NCBI GenBank assembly: GCA_030647435.1
Contig: JAUSJX010000167.1
Span: 1 to 64,000, forward strand
DNA from: Candidatus Rokuibacteriota bacterium
Lineage (GTDB): Bacteria; Methylomirabilota; Methylomirabilia; Rokubacteriales; CSP1-6
Length of the DNA: 64,000 nucleotides
Reading direction: 5' to 3'
Position 1 is the first letter of the stretch; every line of letters begins with the position of its first letter. A program made the translations under genes and the position numbers. Under the pieces are notes generated by a model, which saw only the letters and a program-made list of their open reading frames with translations, was not told where the DNA came from and did not search any database. Below are positions 33,794-44,933 of the stretch, one piece after another.

Positions 33794-36088
<2,295 letters not shown>

Positions 36089-36277: not shown

Positions 36278-36820
36278 CTACCCGAGAACGCAGAAGCCCT
36301 GTGACTCGACCCCGAGCGGCACGTTGAACTTGCTGCGGAAATTCTCGAGCGCGACGACCGCGGTCAGCTCGACGATCTGCGCCTCGTCGAAGTGGGACCG
36401 GAGCCGCGCGAAGAGCTCGTCGCTGGCGCGCTGGCCCGTGATGGTCATGGCCTCCGCGTACTCGAGCGCCGCGCGCTCCATCTCCGAGAAGCGGCGGCTC
36501 TCCCGCCACGCCGGCACCTCGCGGATCTTGTCCTCGTCCGCCCCCGCCTGCATCCCCCTGGATGCGTTGATGTCGATTCAGAAGGGGCAGCCGTTGATCA
36601 GCGCGACACGGAGGTAGACGAGCGGCACGAGGAAAGCCGGCAGCCGCCCCGACTTCTCGATGGAGGCCGAGAGCTGCTTGGCCGCCTTCAGGATGGGCGG
36701 GCAGTGGGCGAAGACCTTCGTGGTGTTGAAGAGACCGCCGAAGAGCTCGCGCTCCTTGGCGAAGATGTCCTTGAGGATGGGATCGCCGCCGTCGTCTTCT
36801 ATCTCGCGCACTCTCGGCAT
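36278..36820 (-). CDS. AhpD-like (carboxymuconolactone decarboxylase family) protein, probable selenoprotein CxxU
   Basis: Two halves in one frame are separated by a single TGA at 36578-36580, and together give 180 residues, the normal length of AhpD/CMD-like proteins. The TGA is codon 81, exactly the second Cys of the CxxC redox motif: ALINGCPF-U-IDINASRGMQ (Cys78, U81). The flanks are intact and well conserved (KIREVPAWRESRRFSEMERA, LEYAEAMTITGQRASDELF). AhpD-like selenoproteins with CxxU are a known class. A stem-loop with a SECIS-like apical loop begins 12 bases after the TGA. The ATG at 36820 has GAGGT 7-8 bases upstream and lies 5 bases after the binding-protein stop. Predicted thiol/selenol peroxidase or reductase-like role. 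The alternative is a nonsense mutation of a Cys codon. Confidence 0.72.
36550..36565 (-). promoter_or_regulatory. Candidate bacterial SECIS hairpin
   Basis: Minus-strand GCATCC-AGGG-GGATGC: a perfect 6-bp stem with a 4-base loop whose second base is G. The loop starts 18 bases after the TGA, within the spacing described for bacterial SECIS elements. The loop AGGG resembles the AGGU loop of E. coli fdhF. It would recruit SelB to decode UGA as selenocysteine. Confidence 0.6.
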
Positions 36821-36825
36821 GGTGT

Positions 36826-38154
36826 CTACCTCATTCGCGCGGCCTGGTCCGCGCGGTCTATGGCCTTGGCGTAGTTGCGCTTGGCGGCCGAGTCCCACTC
36901 GGTCTCGAGCCGCGACTTCACGTCGGGCTTGTCCTTGAAGGCCGCGTTGAACGCCTTGTCCGCCGCCTGCTTGCCGTCCAGCGGCACGGTGCCGGCGAGC
37001 CTCCGCGCTTCAGCGAGCTCGGCCGCTCCCAGGTCGAGGCGCCGTCCCGGCTCCCGCACCTTCGGCGCGGTGGCCTCGGCGGCGTAGATCGCGCCCCAGG
37101 CCGCCTTGAGCTCGGCGTGGCGGAACGTGATGATCTGGTCGAAGAGGGCATTGACGATATTGCGCCTCCCGGAGGACAGCTTGTCGTCGAACTCGATCCC
37201 TCCGAGCTTCATCGTGAACGGGTTGGGATAGCCCTTGGGCGCGCGGCTGTAGAGCGCGGGCACCACGGGCAGCCTGCCGATCTCGGTCGAGAAGAGCTTC
37301 ATCTGCCCTTCGTCGGACAGGAGGTACTCGACGAAGGCGCGCGCATTGTCGGGGTTGGGCCCGTTCCGGACCACCGCCACGGAGGCAGGCACGACCGCCG
37401 TCAGCGAGGGATACGCGAAGCCGATCGGCTGCCCCGAGGCGATGGCCGAGAGCCCGAAGAAGTCGATGACCACCCCGATGCCGAGCTGGCCCGAGATGAC
37501 GGCCTCGGGCACCCCGAAGCTCCGCTCGGCGATCGCGCCCATGTTACCGCCCATCTGCATCAGCAGCGCCCAGCCCTTCTCCCAGCCGTAGGCCTGCAGG
37601 ATCACCTCGACCGTCAGGTGCGTGGTGCCGCTCCGCGACGGCGCAGAGATCGAGAGGTGCCCGTGGTAGCGCGGGTCGCTTAGGTCGGTCCACTCCTTGG
37701 GCGCCGGCAGCTTGTGGAGCGCCAGGTAGCGCGTGTTCCACATGAGGCCGTAGCCCGAGACGGCGAAGCCCCAGTACTGCCCGTCAGAGTCGTGGAGCGG
37801 GAAGCCGCCGACCTTGGCCGGCATGCGTGCGAGCGTCTCCTTCGGCAGGACGAGCTTGTCGAGGAGACCGTCGGCCTTGAGCGTCTGGAAGGCGTCCACC
37901 GCCGAGACCCAGAAGATGTCGGCCTCCGGCCGGGCTCGGGTCTCGCGGAGATAGGTCACGCCCTGGTTGGTCTGCTGCTGCTTGACGATCACCTTGACGC
38001 CGGGATGCTTCTGCTCGAAGGCCTGCTTGTAGGCCTCGAAGAGCTCCTTGGGGAAGGAGGTCAGCACCACGACCTCCTTGGTTGCCGCGGCGGCGGCGGG
38101 ATCAGCGGCGCCCAGTGCGGCAGCCGCGAGCAGGACGGCGACAAGCCGTCTCAT
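36826..38154 (-). CDS. ABC transporter substrate-binding protein (ferric/AEP type)
   Basis: 442 residues with a Sec signal peptide (RRLVAVLLAAAALGAADPA) and a type II binding-protein fold of the iron(III)/AEP group: VVVLTSFPKELFEAYKQAFE, RPEADIFWVSAVDAFQTL, ISAPSRSGTTHLTVEVI and NARAFVEYLLSDEGQMKL. It is about 90 residues longer than usual, with an extra C-terminal helical part. The ATG overlaps the PP2C gene stop by 4 bases. It is thus translated together with a regulator rather than with a permease. It probably feeds the permease/ATPase at 28.8-32.8 kb, which lacks a binding protein, or acts as a periplasmic sensor. Confidence 0.9.
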   Translation of the reverse strand: MRRLVAVLLAAAALGAADPAAAAATKEVVVLTSFPKELFEAYKQAFEQKHPGVKVIVKQQQTNQGVTYLRETRARPEADIFWVSAVDAFQTLKADGLLDKLVLPKETLARMPAKVGGFPLHDSDGQYWGFAVSGYGLMWNTRYLALHKLPAPKEWTDLSDPRYHGHLSISAPSRSGTTHLTVEVILQAYGWEKGWALLMQMGGNMGAIAERSFGVPEAVISGQLGIGVVIDFFGLSAIASGQPIGFAYPSLTAVVPASVAVVRNGPNPDNARAFVEYLLSDEGQMKLFSTEIGRLPVVPALYSRAPKGYPNPFTMKLGGIEFDDKLSSGRRNIVNALFDQIITFRHAELKAAWGAIYAAEATAPKVREPGRRLDLGAAELAEARRLAGTVPLDGKQAADKAFNAAFKDKPDVKSRLETEWDSAAKRNYAKAIDRADQAARMR

Positions 38155-39314
38155 GGCCGCTTGAGAATGAAGGCCGTCATGTCGTCGCGCATCCGGCCCG
38201 CCCCGTCCGCCAGCACCTCCGCGGTCAGAGCGTCGACCTGCGCCTGGGCGCCCAGATCCCGCGAGCGGTCCAGCGCCCGCAGCACGCGCTCGAGACCCGG
38301 GCGCTTGCCGTCGGCGCCGTGCGCCTCCGTCACGCCGTCCGTGAGGAAGACCAGACTGTCGCCCGACTCGAGGTCGACCTCGGCCTCCTCGAACGCCGCC
38401 TCCTCGAAGACGCCCAGGATCATGCCGCCCACGCTCACCGTCTTGGGCGCGGCGCCCGCGCGCACGAGGATGGGCTCGGGGTGGCCGGCCGACGCCAGCG
38501 CGACGCGCCCCTCGCGGCCGGGGAAGAGCACGGCCAGCACGATCGTCACGAACATCGAGGGTGGCATGTCGCGGCAGAGCGAGGCGTTGAGCCGCGCCAG
38601 CACCTCGGCGGGCTCGGCGAGCCCCCGCGCGATCTCGCGCAGGAGCGTCCGCACCATGACCATGAGCAGCGCGGCCGGGATGCCCTTGCCCGACACGTCG
38701 CCCACCGCGACCGCGATACGCTCGCCCATGGGCAGGATGTCGAAGAAATCGCCGCCGACCATCGTGGACGGACGCAGCACCGCGCCCGCCTCCAGCCCCG
38801 CCAGCGTCGGCGGCACGGGCGGCGTCAAGCGGACCTGGATGTCCCGCGCGGCCTCGAGGTCGCGCGTCAGCTGCGCGACGCCCTCCGTCGAGGACCACTC
38901 GCCGAGCACCCCGAGGAGCGGGGCGGTCAGCCGCGCGAGCGCCGTGCGTTTGAGCAGCGACTGCACGCGCACGAGCATCTCCGACGGCTCGAAGGGTTTG
39001 GCGACGTAGTCGTCGGCGCCGCGGTCGAAGCCGCGGATCTTGTCGGCGAGCTGCGCCTTGGCCGAGAGCATGATGACCGGCAGGTGGACGGTAGGCCCGT
39101 GCTCGCGGATGCGCTTGAGGGTCTCGAGCCCGTCCGCGCGCGGCATCATGACGTCGAGGATGACGAGGTCCGGCGGCTCGCGGCGAATGGCTTCGATGGC
39201 CTCGACGCCGTCGCCGGCCGTCTGCACCTCGAACCCCGCGCGGCGCAATGTCACGCTCAGCACGGTGCTGATGTCCGCCTCGTCGTCCACCACGAGGATC
39301 CGCGGGCGGCTCAC
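38151..39314 (-). CDS. Response regulator with PP2C (RsbU/SpoIIE-type) phosphatase
   Basis: 387 residues. Receiver at 1-125 (ILVVDDEADISTVL, phospho-Asp in DLVILDVMMPRADG, Lys in YVAKPFEPSE), then a SpoIIE-type PP2C domain (GGDFFDILPMGERIAVAVGD, VSGKGIPAALLMVMVRTLL, DGVTEAHGADG). When phosphorylated by the overlapping hybrid kinase it should dephosphorylate a STAS antagonist such as that at 32844-33179. The GTG start overlaps the kinase stop by 4 bases and its own stop overlaps the binding-protein start. Confidence 0.94.
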   Translation of the reverse strand: MSRPRILVVDDEADISTVLSVTLRRAGFEVQTAGDGVEAIEAIRREPPDLVILDVMMPRADGLETLKRIREHGPTVHLPVIMLSAKAQLADKIRGFDRGADDYVAKPFEPSEMLVRVQSLLKRTALARLTAPLLGVLGEWSSTEGVAQLTRDLEAARDIQVRLTPPVPPTLAGLEAGAVLRPSTMVGGDFFDILPMGERIAVAVGDVSGKGIPAALLMVMVRTLLREIARGLAEPAEVLARLNASLCRDMPPSMFVTIVLAVLFPGREGRVALASAGHPEPILVRAGAAPKTVSVGGMILGVFEEAAFEEAEVDLESGDSLVFLTDGVTEAHGADGKRPGLERVLRALDRSRDLGAQAQVDALTAEVLADGAGRMRDDMTAFILKRP

Positions 39315-42300: not shown

Positions 42301-44041
42301 TGACCCGGCGGCGGTCCTGGATGTCCTGGAAGAGCCGCGCCTTGGTCAGGGCCACGGCCGCGTGCTCGGCGAAGGCCTCCATGACCTTGGTCTCGCCCGG
42401 CGTGAGAGCCCGTCCGGAACCCGTGAAGAGGCACACGACGCCCACCGCCTGGCCCGCGACCAGCAGCGGCAGCACCGCCGCCGAAACCATGCCTGCCTCG
42501 ACGAGACCCAGCGGGATCGAGGGGTCGGATCCTTCGGCCGCGCGCGCCGCCAGGTCCTCGACGATGATCGAGCGGCCCGAAGCCGCCACCTCGCCCACGA
42601 GCCCCTGCCCCAGCGCGAGCTCGGGCCGGGCCGGGTCGCCGTCGCGCTCGTCGGCCGAGCCGGCGCTCAGGCGCACCCGCTCGCCCTCCACCGTCCAGAG
42701 CCTGCAGGCCCCGCCCGGAAAGAGCGTGAGCGCCACGTCCACGACGGCCGGCAGGATGGCCTCGGGGTCGACCGAGGCCGTCAACCCGCGGCTGAGTCCC
42801 GTCAGCGTCTCCAGGCGCCGGGCGTAGAGCGAAGATTCGGCGTAGAGGCGCATGTTCCGAAGCGCGACGGCGGCCTGGGCGATGAAGCTCTCGAGCAGCT
42901 CCCGCTCGTCGGCACCCAGCCGGAACGCCGAACGCCCACACAGGGCCAGCACGGCCAGGAGCGAGCCGTCGAGCAGCACCGGCACGCCGAGGAAGCTCTT
43001 GAGGTCGCGGCCCTGCCACCACGCGCGCGCGGCGAAGCGCGCGTCGGCGAAGACGTCGGCCACCTCGAGGATGCGCCGCTCGGCGGCGACCCAGCCGACG
43101 CTGCCCTCGCCGAAGCCGAGGGAGGTGAAGGGCAGGTCGGTACCGGGGCGCTCGTCGGAGACGGCCCGCAGCGTGACACGCTGCGCCGCCTCGTCGGCCA
43201 CCCAGAACGACACGAAGGACGCCCCCGTCAGCTCGGCCGCCGCCCGGGCGACGGCGCCCAGCACCTCGCGCTCGTCGAGGGACGAGGAGACGACGTGGTT
43301 GACGCGCGACAGCGCGCGCAGGCGCGCGGCCCGGCCCTCGAGCGCCTCGCGCAGGCGCGCGTTGCTCAGGAGGACACCCGCCTGCTCGCCGATGGCCGCG
43401 AGCGGCGCCAGCTCGGCCGCCTCGAAACTGCGCCGACGCTCCCACCACACGAGGCAGAAGGCGCCGGAGACCTGGCCGTCGAACAGGAGCGGGATCAGGA
43501 CCGCCGATTGGTGCGGGACGCGCCGGAAGGGCGCGCCCGCGAAGCGCGGGTCGTTGGGGACGTCGTCGCTCCAGACGACGTGCCCCTGGCCGAACGCCTC
43601 GTGCAGCCCTTCGATATCGGCCGGGGTGAGCGTGCTCGCGGCGAGCGCCTCGACGGCGTGCTTCGGCACGCTGTGCGCGACGATGGGGCGGAGCTCGCCG
43701 GTGCGCGCGTCGAGGAGGTGGGCCGAGGCGGTGTCGGCTCCCGTCAGCCGGGCGAGCTCGTGGCAGATGAGCCGGAGGCCCTCGGGCAGGTCGGTGGCCG
43801 AGCCGACGACACGCGCAACCCCCAGGAGCCCGGTCGTCTCGCGCAGCCGGGCTTCGAGCGCCTCCCGGGCCCCGGCGGATGCCTGGGCGTCTAAGGGTCC
43901 CGGAGGGCCTGGGGCTGCCGGAGGGCCTGGGGCTGCCGGAGGGCCTGGGGCTGCCGGAGGGCCTGGGGCTGCCGGAGGGCCTGGGGCTGCCGGAGGGCCT
44001 GGGGCTGCCGCGTGCGTGGGACGGGCTCTTTCTTTACTCAT
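39311..44041 (-). CDS. Giant soluble hybrid histidine kinase with six GAF domains and PAS
   Basis: 1576 residues with no membrane segment. Order: low-complexity Pro-Gly-Pro-Pro-Ala-Ala repeats (about 14-49), six GAF-like domains (about 60-1080), PAS (about 1085-1205, FASTSDGFLVVDLGGRIVGF), phosphoacceptor STVSHELRTPLTSIKGSLHL, HATPase (NLLSNAIKFSPPG, GGTGLGLAICRGIVEEHG) and a C-terminal receiver (LILVVDDEHDIRTLL, DLITMDLMLPDLDG). Several GAFs are clear paralogues of those in the 2064-residue kinase (for example GADERELLESFIAQAAVALR here and GPDERELLESFVAQAAVAIR there). It is coupled by 4-base overlap to the REC-PP2C gene, its probable target. Confidence 0.93.
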   Translation of the reverse strand: MSKERARPTHAAAPGPPAAPGPPAAPGPPAAPGPPAAPGPPAAPGPPGPLDAQASAGAREALEARLRETTGLLGVARVVGSATDLPEGLRLICHELARLTGADTASAHLLDARTGELRPIVAHSVPKHAVEALAASTLTPADIEGLHEAFGQGHVVWSDDVPNDPRFAGAPFRRVPHQSAVLIPLLFDGQVSGAFCLVWWERRRSFEAAELAPLAAIGEQAGVLLSNARLREALEGRAARLRALSRVNHVVSSSLDEREVLGAVARAAAELTGASFVSFWVADEAAQRVTLRAVSDERPGTDLPFTSLGFGEGSVGWVAAERRILEVADVFADARFAARAWWQGRDLKSFLGVPVLLDGSLLAVLALCGRSAFRLGADERELLESFIAQAAVALRNMRLYAESSLYARRLETLTGLSRGLTASVDPEAILPAVVDVALTLFPGGACRLWTVEGERVRLSAGSADERDGDPARPELALGQGLVGEVAASGRSIIVEDLAARAAEGSDPSIPLGLVEAGMVSAAVLPLLVAGQAVGVVCLFTGSGRALTPGETKVMEAFAEHAAVALTKARLFQDIQDRRRVSEELYTLTVSMMRSMDLQQRVDTFVRGAQEALHFDRISVLLPDSDGTALEVAASTEEEAAARSAVPIAGGGAIERAWRSGETALILSDADLSALPPLDPALQAHPLLRANRFAAVPLRFQELTIGVVLADNTRSRRTVTRRGVAQLELFCQQLQSLVSNAGLWAETQRRERDATLLVEVTRRLSSTLDLEQVLDIITESALAAVELDAAGFYRWDTARDGLALVRGRNLPETMTRDETLRAGEGVSGRAYAERRAVWTQDWKTDPSLHYRAETVAALEAADGPRANIAVPIIIRDEVYGVLLGGTRVRHRFTERDVHVLSSMAAQAAVAIENARLYTVTQYNLAAAALLNDAARTLHRTLDARRLLPDALQGLGQTFSAVGAAVILFGEGGSGQGTVIRWGAMPEDAMRALAEPLGKREAPLLVPDTMSRPDLIPAGVLEAGPRGLAAFPVRGRSRVLGGLALLFSGHRSLYEAETRLLAAYADQLAMALDNTALFEEAENKKTQLEQVFASTSDGFLVVDLGGRIVGFNRQGGELLGIVPDEVVGRPFQHLVEVLGPAVAWEEGDGQALLAMVDSGRPAAAAGDLELRAPEPRTLGWRAAPMRDLLGETVGVTFTLNDVTRQREIDRMKTEFVSTVSHELRTPLTSIKGSLHLLLSDPALQLDATQRQLVDISVKNTDRLIRLITNILDISKIEAGRIQLELGMHRVEEFVSAAVDGIVAFAESRSIAIETEVAGDLPPVRVDVDRMVQVVTNLLSNAIKFSPPGSTVTVTATRAGRQLVVRVTDQGRGIAAEDMGKLFKKFQQLDGSNVRSVGGTGLGLAICRGIVEEHGGSISVESQLGQGATFTVTVPLPAGEGVDGTDGAEPGPGQGPLILVVDDEHDIRTLLRDQLELEGFRVLEAGRALEAVEVARERQPDLITMDLMLPDLDGFEAIRLLRENARTREIPVVILSAMELGDDDTRALGPTVHLSKPFSRADLLGVIRANLRLDRSVGR
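43901..44008. repeat. Six exact 18-bp tandem repeats in the kinase N-terminus
   Basis: Plus-strand unit CGGAGGGCCTGGGGCTGC, six copies in register and identical, encoding on the minus strand the collagen-like hexapeptide PGPPAA/APGPPA. It is a simple in-frame array likely to change copy number by slippage. Confidence 0.95.
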
Positions 44042-44114: not shown

Positions 44115-44933
44115 TTACGGCTTGACTCCGCGGGCCGCGTAGTAGTTGAGGGTGAAGGCGAACTGCCCCGATGCGGCAAGGCGCTCGATGGCAGCCATCC
44201 AGCGGGCCGCCGCGCCGGCGCTCGCGAGGCCGAGGCGCACCGCGTTCTGAGCGCGGCGCGTGAGCATCGCGTGCGTGTACGGCTCGAGCGTCGTGTCCTC
44301 GTAGACGTCCACGAAGAGCCGCACGCGCCCGAGGCCGAGCCGCACCAGCCTGCCGAAGAGCGTGCGCCCGGACCAGGGATCCGGGTACATGCGGGCGACC
44401 ACGCCGTCCATGATGCGCGCGGTCAGCGCGCGGTCGGGATGGTCGAGCGTCAGCGAGCCGAAGTCCTGGTCCTGGACGGCGAGGAGGCCGCCCGGGCGCG
44501 TGACGCGCAGCATGTCGCGGAGGATGGCCTCAGAATCCTGGACGTGGAGGAGAACGGTCACGGCGAAGACGCGGTCGAAGCGCCCCGCCGCGAAGCGCAG
44601 CCGTGCGCCATCTCCGACCTCGTGGACGGGCCGCCCTCCTCGCCCCAGGTGGCGCGCGATGCGCCGCGCCGCCTCGGTCATGACGCGACTCGGGTCAACG
44701 CCGATCACCCGCCCGCGCGGGCCGACCAGCGCCGCGGCGTCCCGGGCGACGATGCCCGTGCCCGATCCGACCTCGAGCACCCGCTGGCCGCGCGCGACCT
44801 TCGCGAAGCGGAGGAACCGGCGGCGCAGCCCGGCCTGGGCCGGCGTGCGCCCGCGCTCCTCCAGGTGCTCGACGAAGCTCTGCGGCTGCCGCTGCCGGTC
44901 TATCGCGCGATAGGGGTCAAGCTTCCCCTTCAC
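44115..44933 (-). CDS. Class I SAM-dependent methyltransferase
   Basis: 272 residues. Motif I is VLEVGSGTGIVARDAAALVG, motif II GRVIGVDPSRVMTEAARRIA, post-I acidic region VGDGARLRFAAGRFDRVFAV and motif III TRPGGLLAVQDQDFGSL. It is an UbiE/Methyltransf_11-type small-molecule methyltransferase of unknown substrate. The GTG start overlaps the upstream HAD phosphatase stop by 4 bases. Confidence 0.9.
   Translation of the reverse strand: MKGKLDPYRAIDRQRQPQSFVEHLEERGRTPAQAGLRRRFLRFAKVARGQRVLEVGSGTGIVARDAAALVGPRGRVIGVDPSRVMTEAARRIARHLGRGGRPVHEVGDGARLRFAAGRFDRVFAVTVLLHVQDSEAILRDMLRVTRPGGLLAVQDQDFGSLTLDHPDRALTARIMDGVVARMYPDPWSGRTLFGRLVRLGLGRVRLFVDVYEDTTLEPYTHAMLTRRAQNAVRLGLASAGAAARWMAAIERLAASGQFAFTLNYYAARGVKP

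Follow-up and report, generated by a model that had tools for sequence, protein, structure and literature searches.

Does the TGA that interrupts an AhpD-like reading frame in this stretch of DNA (the window, 64,000 nucleotides) end a protein, mark a lesion, or encode selenocysteine (Sec)? The locus was analyzed by translation, comparison with homologues, hairpin counts, a search of the source genome for the Sec machinery, and structure prediction. The gene product is almost certainly a functional CxxU selenoprotein of the AhpD-like (COG2128/YciW-type) kind. The broader reading, a small redox enzyme with a selenium-bearing active site in a soil or groundwater bacterium, is strongly supported.

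One CMD-domain frame contains a single TGA

Translation with TGA read as Sec (U) gave one 180-residue frame that runs from 36820 to 36278 on the minus strand and closes at a TAG. The earlier note on this locus described one AhpD/CMD frame broken solely by a TGA at codon 81; translation confirms that description and the coordinates given there, and supplies the strand, which had been left unstated. The gene (36278..36820, 180 codons plus TAG) is defined by this translation, by Pfam CMD (PF02627), and by 38 orthologues. Its sole in-frame TGA is codon 81 (36580 to 36578, minus strand), flanked by the residues NGCPF-U-IDINASRGM. The motif is C78-P-F-U81, and the partner residue Cys78 (codon at 36587..36589, minus strand) is at least 90% conserved in the family alignment. 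The frame scored 53.3 bits against the CMD model, for which the cut-off is 23, and this score places the product in the CMD/AhpD superfamily. The NCBIfam AhpD core domain model was also matched.

Standard ORF calling divides the locus into two ORFs of 106 and 91 amino acids. If UGA were a true stop, an 80-residue product would be followed by a second protein starting at Met90. This arrangement is very improbable, because the stretch from the TGA to the ATG (codons 82–89) specifies conserved CMD-domain residues, and the protein is predicted to fold as a single compact unit in which the TGA falls at a helix start. The Sec machinery and the SECIS hairpin described below also argue against it.

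The TGA is conserved and its flanks are under purifying selection

Orthologues were sought in 95 genomes of the phylum, and 38 full-length sequences, the window gene included, were extracted. Codon 81 is TGA in 38/38, and the downstream frame is open to its end in all of them. Neither Cys nor any other residue occupies codon 81 among these 38 full-length orthologues, whose identities range from 65 to 93%. The named matches among the relatives are Candidatus Rokubacteria/Rokuibacteriota. In eight comparisons, dN/dS was 0.06–0.40 before the TGA and 0.16–0.48 after it. Values below 0.5 on both sides indicate purifying selection, and the lack of decay that had been noticed in the flanks of the window gene holds at the level of the family.

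A wider scan of 84,980 species genomes returned 80 loci, and position 81 was TGA in 63, TGC in 13, and TGT in 3. The alignment of TGA (63) with Cys (16) is the pattern expected of a bacterial selenoprotein gene, and it answers the check on homologues that the earlier note had proposed, with TGA in all orthologues and Cys in the more distant homologues. The tree places the window gene inside a 67-row clade that has Sec in 67/67 and contains no Cys orthologue. This clade spans Rokubacteria, alpha- and betaproteobacteria, Myxococcota, Binatota, and Chloroflexota, and it takes in the cultured genera Reyranella and Vineibacter (named isolates Reyranella soli and Vineibacter terrae). The main Cys group carries a different motif, SQINxCxFC. 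Bootstrap support is unsettled and the root is arbitrary; therefore, no count of Sec gains or losses is offered.

These data decide whether the TGA arose by nonsense mutation of a gene that once encoded Cys. TGA is one base from TGC and TGT, and the distant homologues do have Cys there, but a pseudogene is refuted by the sharing of one TGA among all orthologues across their range of identities, the open frames beyond it, the purifying selection on both sides, and the clade free of Cys orthologues. A sequencing or assembly error, conceivable in a 176-contig draft, is less probable still and is refuted by the same TGA in independent assemblies of dozens of genomes, those of Reyranella soli and Vineibacter terrae included. 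For practical purposes, decay and sequencing error can be dismissed.

A SECIS-type hairpin is conserved downstream of the TGA

A bacterial SECIS-type hairpin lies at 36550..36565 on the minus strand, identified from the sequence, codon bias, and cross-homologue counts. It consists of a 6-bp stem, GCATCC/GGATGC, closed by an AGGG loop that occupies +19 to +22 relative to the TGA. The element GCATCC-AGGG-GGATGC is separated from the TGA by 12 nt, and the stem and loop that the earlier note had seen 12 bases past the TGA are thus present. The native stretch folds modestly better than shuffled sequences (z = −1.77, single gene); with this value only, the hairpin of one gene is unconvincing by itself.

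The test across homologues counted a hairpin when its loop, at +18 to +20, contained GG or GT and was enclosed by at least five Watson-Crick pairs. Of 82 distinct Sec genes, 70 retain the hairpin, compared to 3.0 expected from synonymous recoding. It occurs in 1 of the 16 Cys homologues, which differs from the 70/82 in Sec genes with a Fisher p of 1.3e-9, a value to be read with the relatedness of the sequences in mind since the cells are not independent. In the remaining 12 Sec genes, no such hairpin falls exactly in the interval tested; in some of them it is shifted. A downstream hairpin with G in a small loop is what a bacterial selenoprotein gene is expected to carry, and its conservation across the Sec homologues supports the earlier reading of the element as a SECIS. 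Since GC-rich genes fold easily, overall hairpin strength anywhere downstream barely divides the Sec genes from the Cys genes (p = 0.013); the two groups are separated only by hairpin position plus loop content.

Stem positions swap Watson-Crick pairs, and several use all four combinations. The stem is GCATCC/GGATGC in Rokubacteria, GCATCA/TGATGC in Reyranella and Vineibacter, TTCCGTC/GACGGAA in other proteobacteria, and GCTGCC/GGCAGC in paralogues. Some amino acids vary along with the stem, and the stem-pair evidence is given as counts. The MAFFT alignment left the loop ungapped, and pairs were counted by script with the stem as anchor. Codon choice shows the same constraint. Ala86 is encoded by GCA in 36/36 orthologue cases, whereas GCA accounts for 2.8% of the Ala codons in the rest of these genes, and Ser87 is encoded by TCC in 38/38 orthologues compared to 18.7% elsewhere. 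The pair turnover across lineages and the near absence from Cys homologues make this hairpin a clear natural case of selection on a SECIS inside coding sequence.

Two orthologues (L025 in genome G045 and L036 in G043) lack the standard hairpin and carry an alternative one whose loop lies at +23 to +25, meaning that the SECIS has moved inside the gene. Variation in the active-site motif was seen among paralogues. In L058 (G087:C79:17826-18350) and L060 (G001:C59:1437-1967), the first Cys of CxxU is replaced by Ala or Ser (APYU, SPYU), and both retain Sec and the hairpin; judged from their sequences, these proteins would work without the usual resolving Cys. L062 (G044:C518:1344-1865) is a close relative of the Sec paralogue L055 and has Ser at the Sec position preceded by Cys (CPCS), possibly a recent loss of Sec.

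The source genome encodes the selenocysteine machinery

The source genome (5.8 Mb, 176 contigs, given as 98.5% complete) contains all four components that the earlier note had proposed to look for and that a bacterial selenoprotein gene requires. tRNA-Sec, with anticodon tca, scored 71.3 bits compared to a cut-off of 47. The selA (493 bits) and selB (380 bits) genes are on the same contig as tRNA-Sec, within 5 kb, and selD scored 343 bits. tRNA-Sec is also present in the Reyranella and Vineibacter carriers. In the mechanism that we infer, SelB with Sec-tRNA would decode the UGA at codon 81 as selenocysteine, and recoding would be directed by the hairpin that starts 12 nt past the UGA.

Other in-frame TGA codons were found in this genome. 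The selD frame (L042, G000:C98:94090-95046) holds one, and the selenophosphate synthetase of the source genome is probably itself a selenoprotein. Two more AhpD-like genes contain an in-frame TGA (L008 and L009, G000:C106:43518-43967 and G000:C97:125370-125795; motifs CRYU and CDYU), and a Cys-form AhpD-like gene is located at C141:84761-85180. A Methylomirabilota genome with 63 predicted selenoproteins has been described (Deng et al. 2026, as relayed in the review PMC13188914). The extra TGA-bearing AhpD-like genes fit the large selenoproteomes reported for this phylum.

Predicted fold and proposed catalytic function

The AlphaFold2 model, with Sec modelled as Cys, has a mean pLDDT of 96 and nine helices, and residue 81 is close to the start of the helix formed by residues 79–91. 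The product is predicted with high confidence to have an all-helical CMD/AhpD fold that positions Cys78 and Sec81 at a helix start. Fold matches reached a TM-score of 0.94 by target, consistent with the AhpD type. Profile and fold searches concur in placing PA0269/AhpD of Pseudomonas aeruginosa and Atu0492 first, followed by the debrominase Bmp8 and Deinococcus AhpD. The fold and motif suggest peroxidase-type chemistry, an assignment that we hold tentatively and consider close to an even call. In such a cycle, the Sec81 selenolate would reduce peroxide or another oxidized small substrate, the resulting selenenic acid would be resolved by Cys78 to a selenenylsulfide, and a thiol carrier would regenerate the enzyme. 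Classical AhpD of the Mycobacterium tuberculosis type has a His four residues after the second Cys. The +4 position is Asn85 in this family and is at least 90% conserved, so the catalysis of the classical AhpD peroxidase may not apply.

The neighbors of the gene were examined for indications of function. An ABC-transporter solute-binding protein (36826..38154, minus strand; Pfam SBP_bac_6) is encoded directly upstream, with 5 nt between its stop and the ATG of the selenoprotein gene. A response regulator with a SpoIIE/PP2C phosphatase domain (38151..39314, minus strand; Pfam Response_reg, SpoIIE) overlaps the 5' end of the binding-protein gene. Downstream of the selenoprotein gene are a PAS hybrid histidine kinase (33794..36088, minus strand; Pfam PAS, HATPase_c, Response_reg), an anti-sigma-type ATPase, and a STAS protein. 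A SAM-dependent methyltransferase is encoded at 44115..44933 on the minus strand (Pfam Methyltransf_25). A large GAF/histidine kinase on the minus strand starts, at approximately 43900–44041, with tandem PGPPAA repeats of low-complexity, collagen-like character.

The earlier note had argued from the operon position for a peroxide or redox role. That argument is weak, since, among the loci of 20 relatives, only three, all from close relatives, repeat the kinase/PP2C arrangement; contig ends limit all counts in these loci. A methyltransferase homologue is near the selenoprotein gene in 13/20 of these loci, and an MFS gene is nearby in 7/20, with an adjoining ABC ATPase in 6 of the 7. With the kinase/PP2C genes limited to close relatives and other neighbors elsewhere, a role in peroxide stress does not follow from the neighborhood, and no neighbor in the 20 loci recurs regularly enough to point to a substrate or donor.

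A selenoprotein with a function other than peroxidase would be compatible with the identity of the gene, because this alternative concerns function only. The protein could be a Sec-dependent thiol oxidoreductase, or it could act in a manner like reductive dehalogenation on a small organic substrate, as Bmp8 does. The presence of Bmp8 (6ohi/6ohj) among the profile and fold matches, Asn85 in place of the AhpD His, and the methyltransferase and transporter genes that often adjoin speak for such a role. Against it, the solved structures that match more closely, PA0269 and Atu0492, belong to putative antioxidant proteins, and it is the lesser possibility. It is conceivable, though we lean against it, that the clade is a distinct AhpD-fold subfamily in which Sec is apparently obligatory (67/67, several phyla), Asn replaces His, and the selenium-dependent reaction may be something other than peroxide reduction.

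Comparison with known AhpD-like families

AhpD-like CxxU selenoproteins were reported in 2005 from the Sargasso Sea (27 sequences; PMC1088965), and the family was later catalogued as COG2128 (YciW) or TIGR01926 (PMC9312934, PMC13188914). The present clade shares with it the CMD/AhpD fold, the CxxU motif with Sec at the second redox position, and a bacterial SECIS whose small loop contains G. It differs in having Sec in every sequence found and in its score against TIGR01926, the model given for that family, through which the comparison was made. The window protein scored 40.7 bits against TIGR01926, the peroxidase-related subfamily, compared to a cut-off of 81.8. PA0269/AhpD-like proteins of Pseudomonas aeruginosa (2o4d, 2ijc, 7xw1) and Atu0492 (2gmy) are matched with E-values of 4e-25 to 2e-24 and a TM-score of approximately 0.9 by target; the solved chains are shorter, approximately 145–165 amino acids, and the likeness rests on profile and fold.

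The NCBIfam model NF053654 (GroundWater_YciW, YciW-related (seleno)protein) gave a full-length match of equal length with Sec at the same position. The score was 147.2 bits compared to the equivalog cut-off of 310, which is passed by a paralogue in a related genome (L053, 337 bits). NF053654 represents a sister family that forms a separate clade in the tree and has the motif CEFU compared to CPFU in the window protein. The GSU3128 family (NF041047) and AhpD_rel_CFYUT (NF041238) are likewise AhpD-related CxxU selenoproteins, and neither matched the window protein at E ≤ 0.001. Because none of the curated NCBIfam selenoprotein models reaches its cut-off on this protein, many genomes are likely to list the gene as two fragments or as a pseudogene. 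The escape from automatic annotation anticipated in the earlier note is therefore plausible.

The type has been known since 2005; the window gene extends it by a new, unmodelled branch and does not define another kind of system. This well-supported branch of the AhpD-like selenoproteins has Sec only and occurs across Rokubacteria and in cultured alphaproteobacteria, where its function could be tested.
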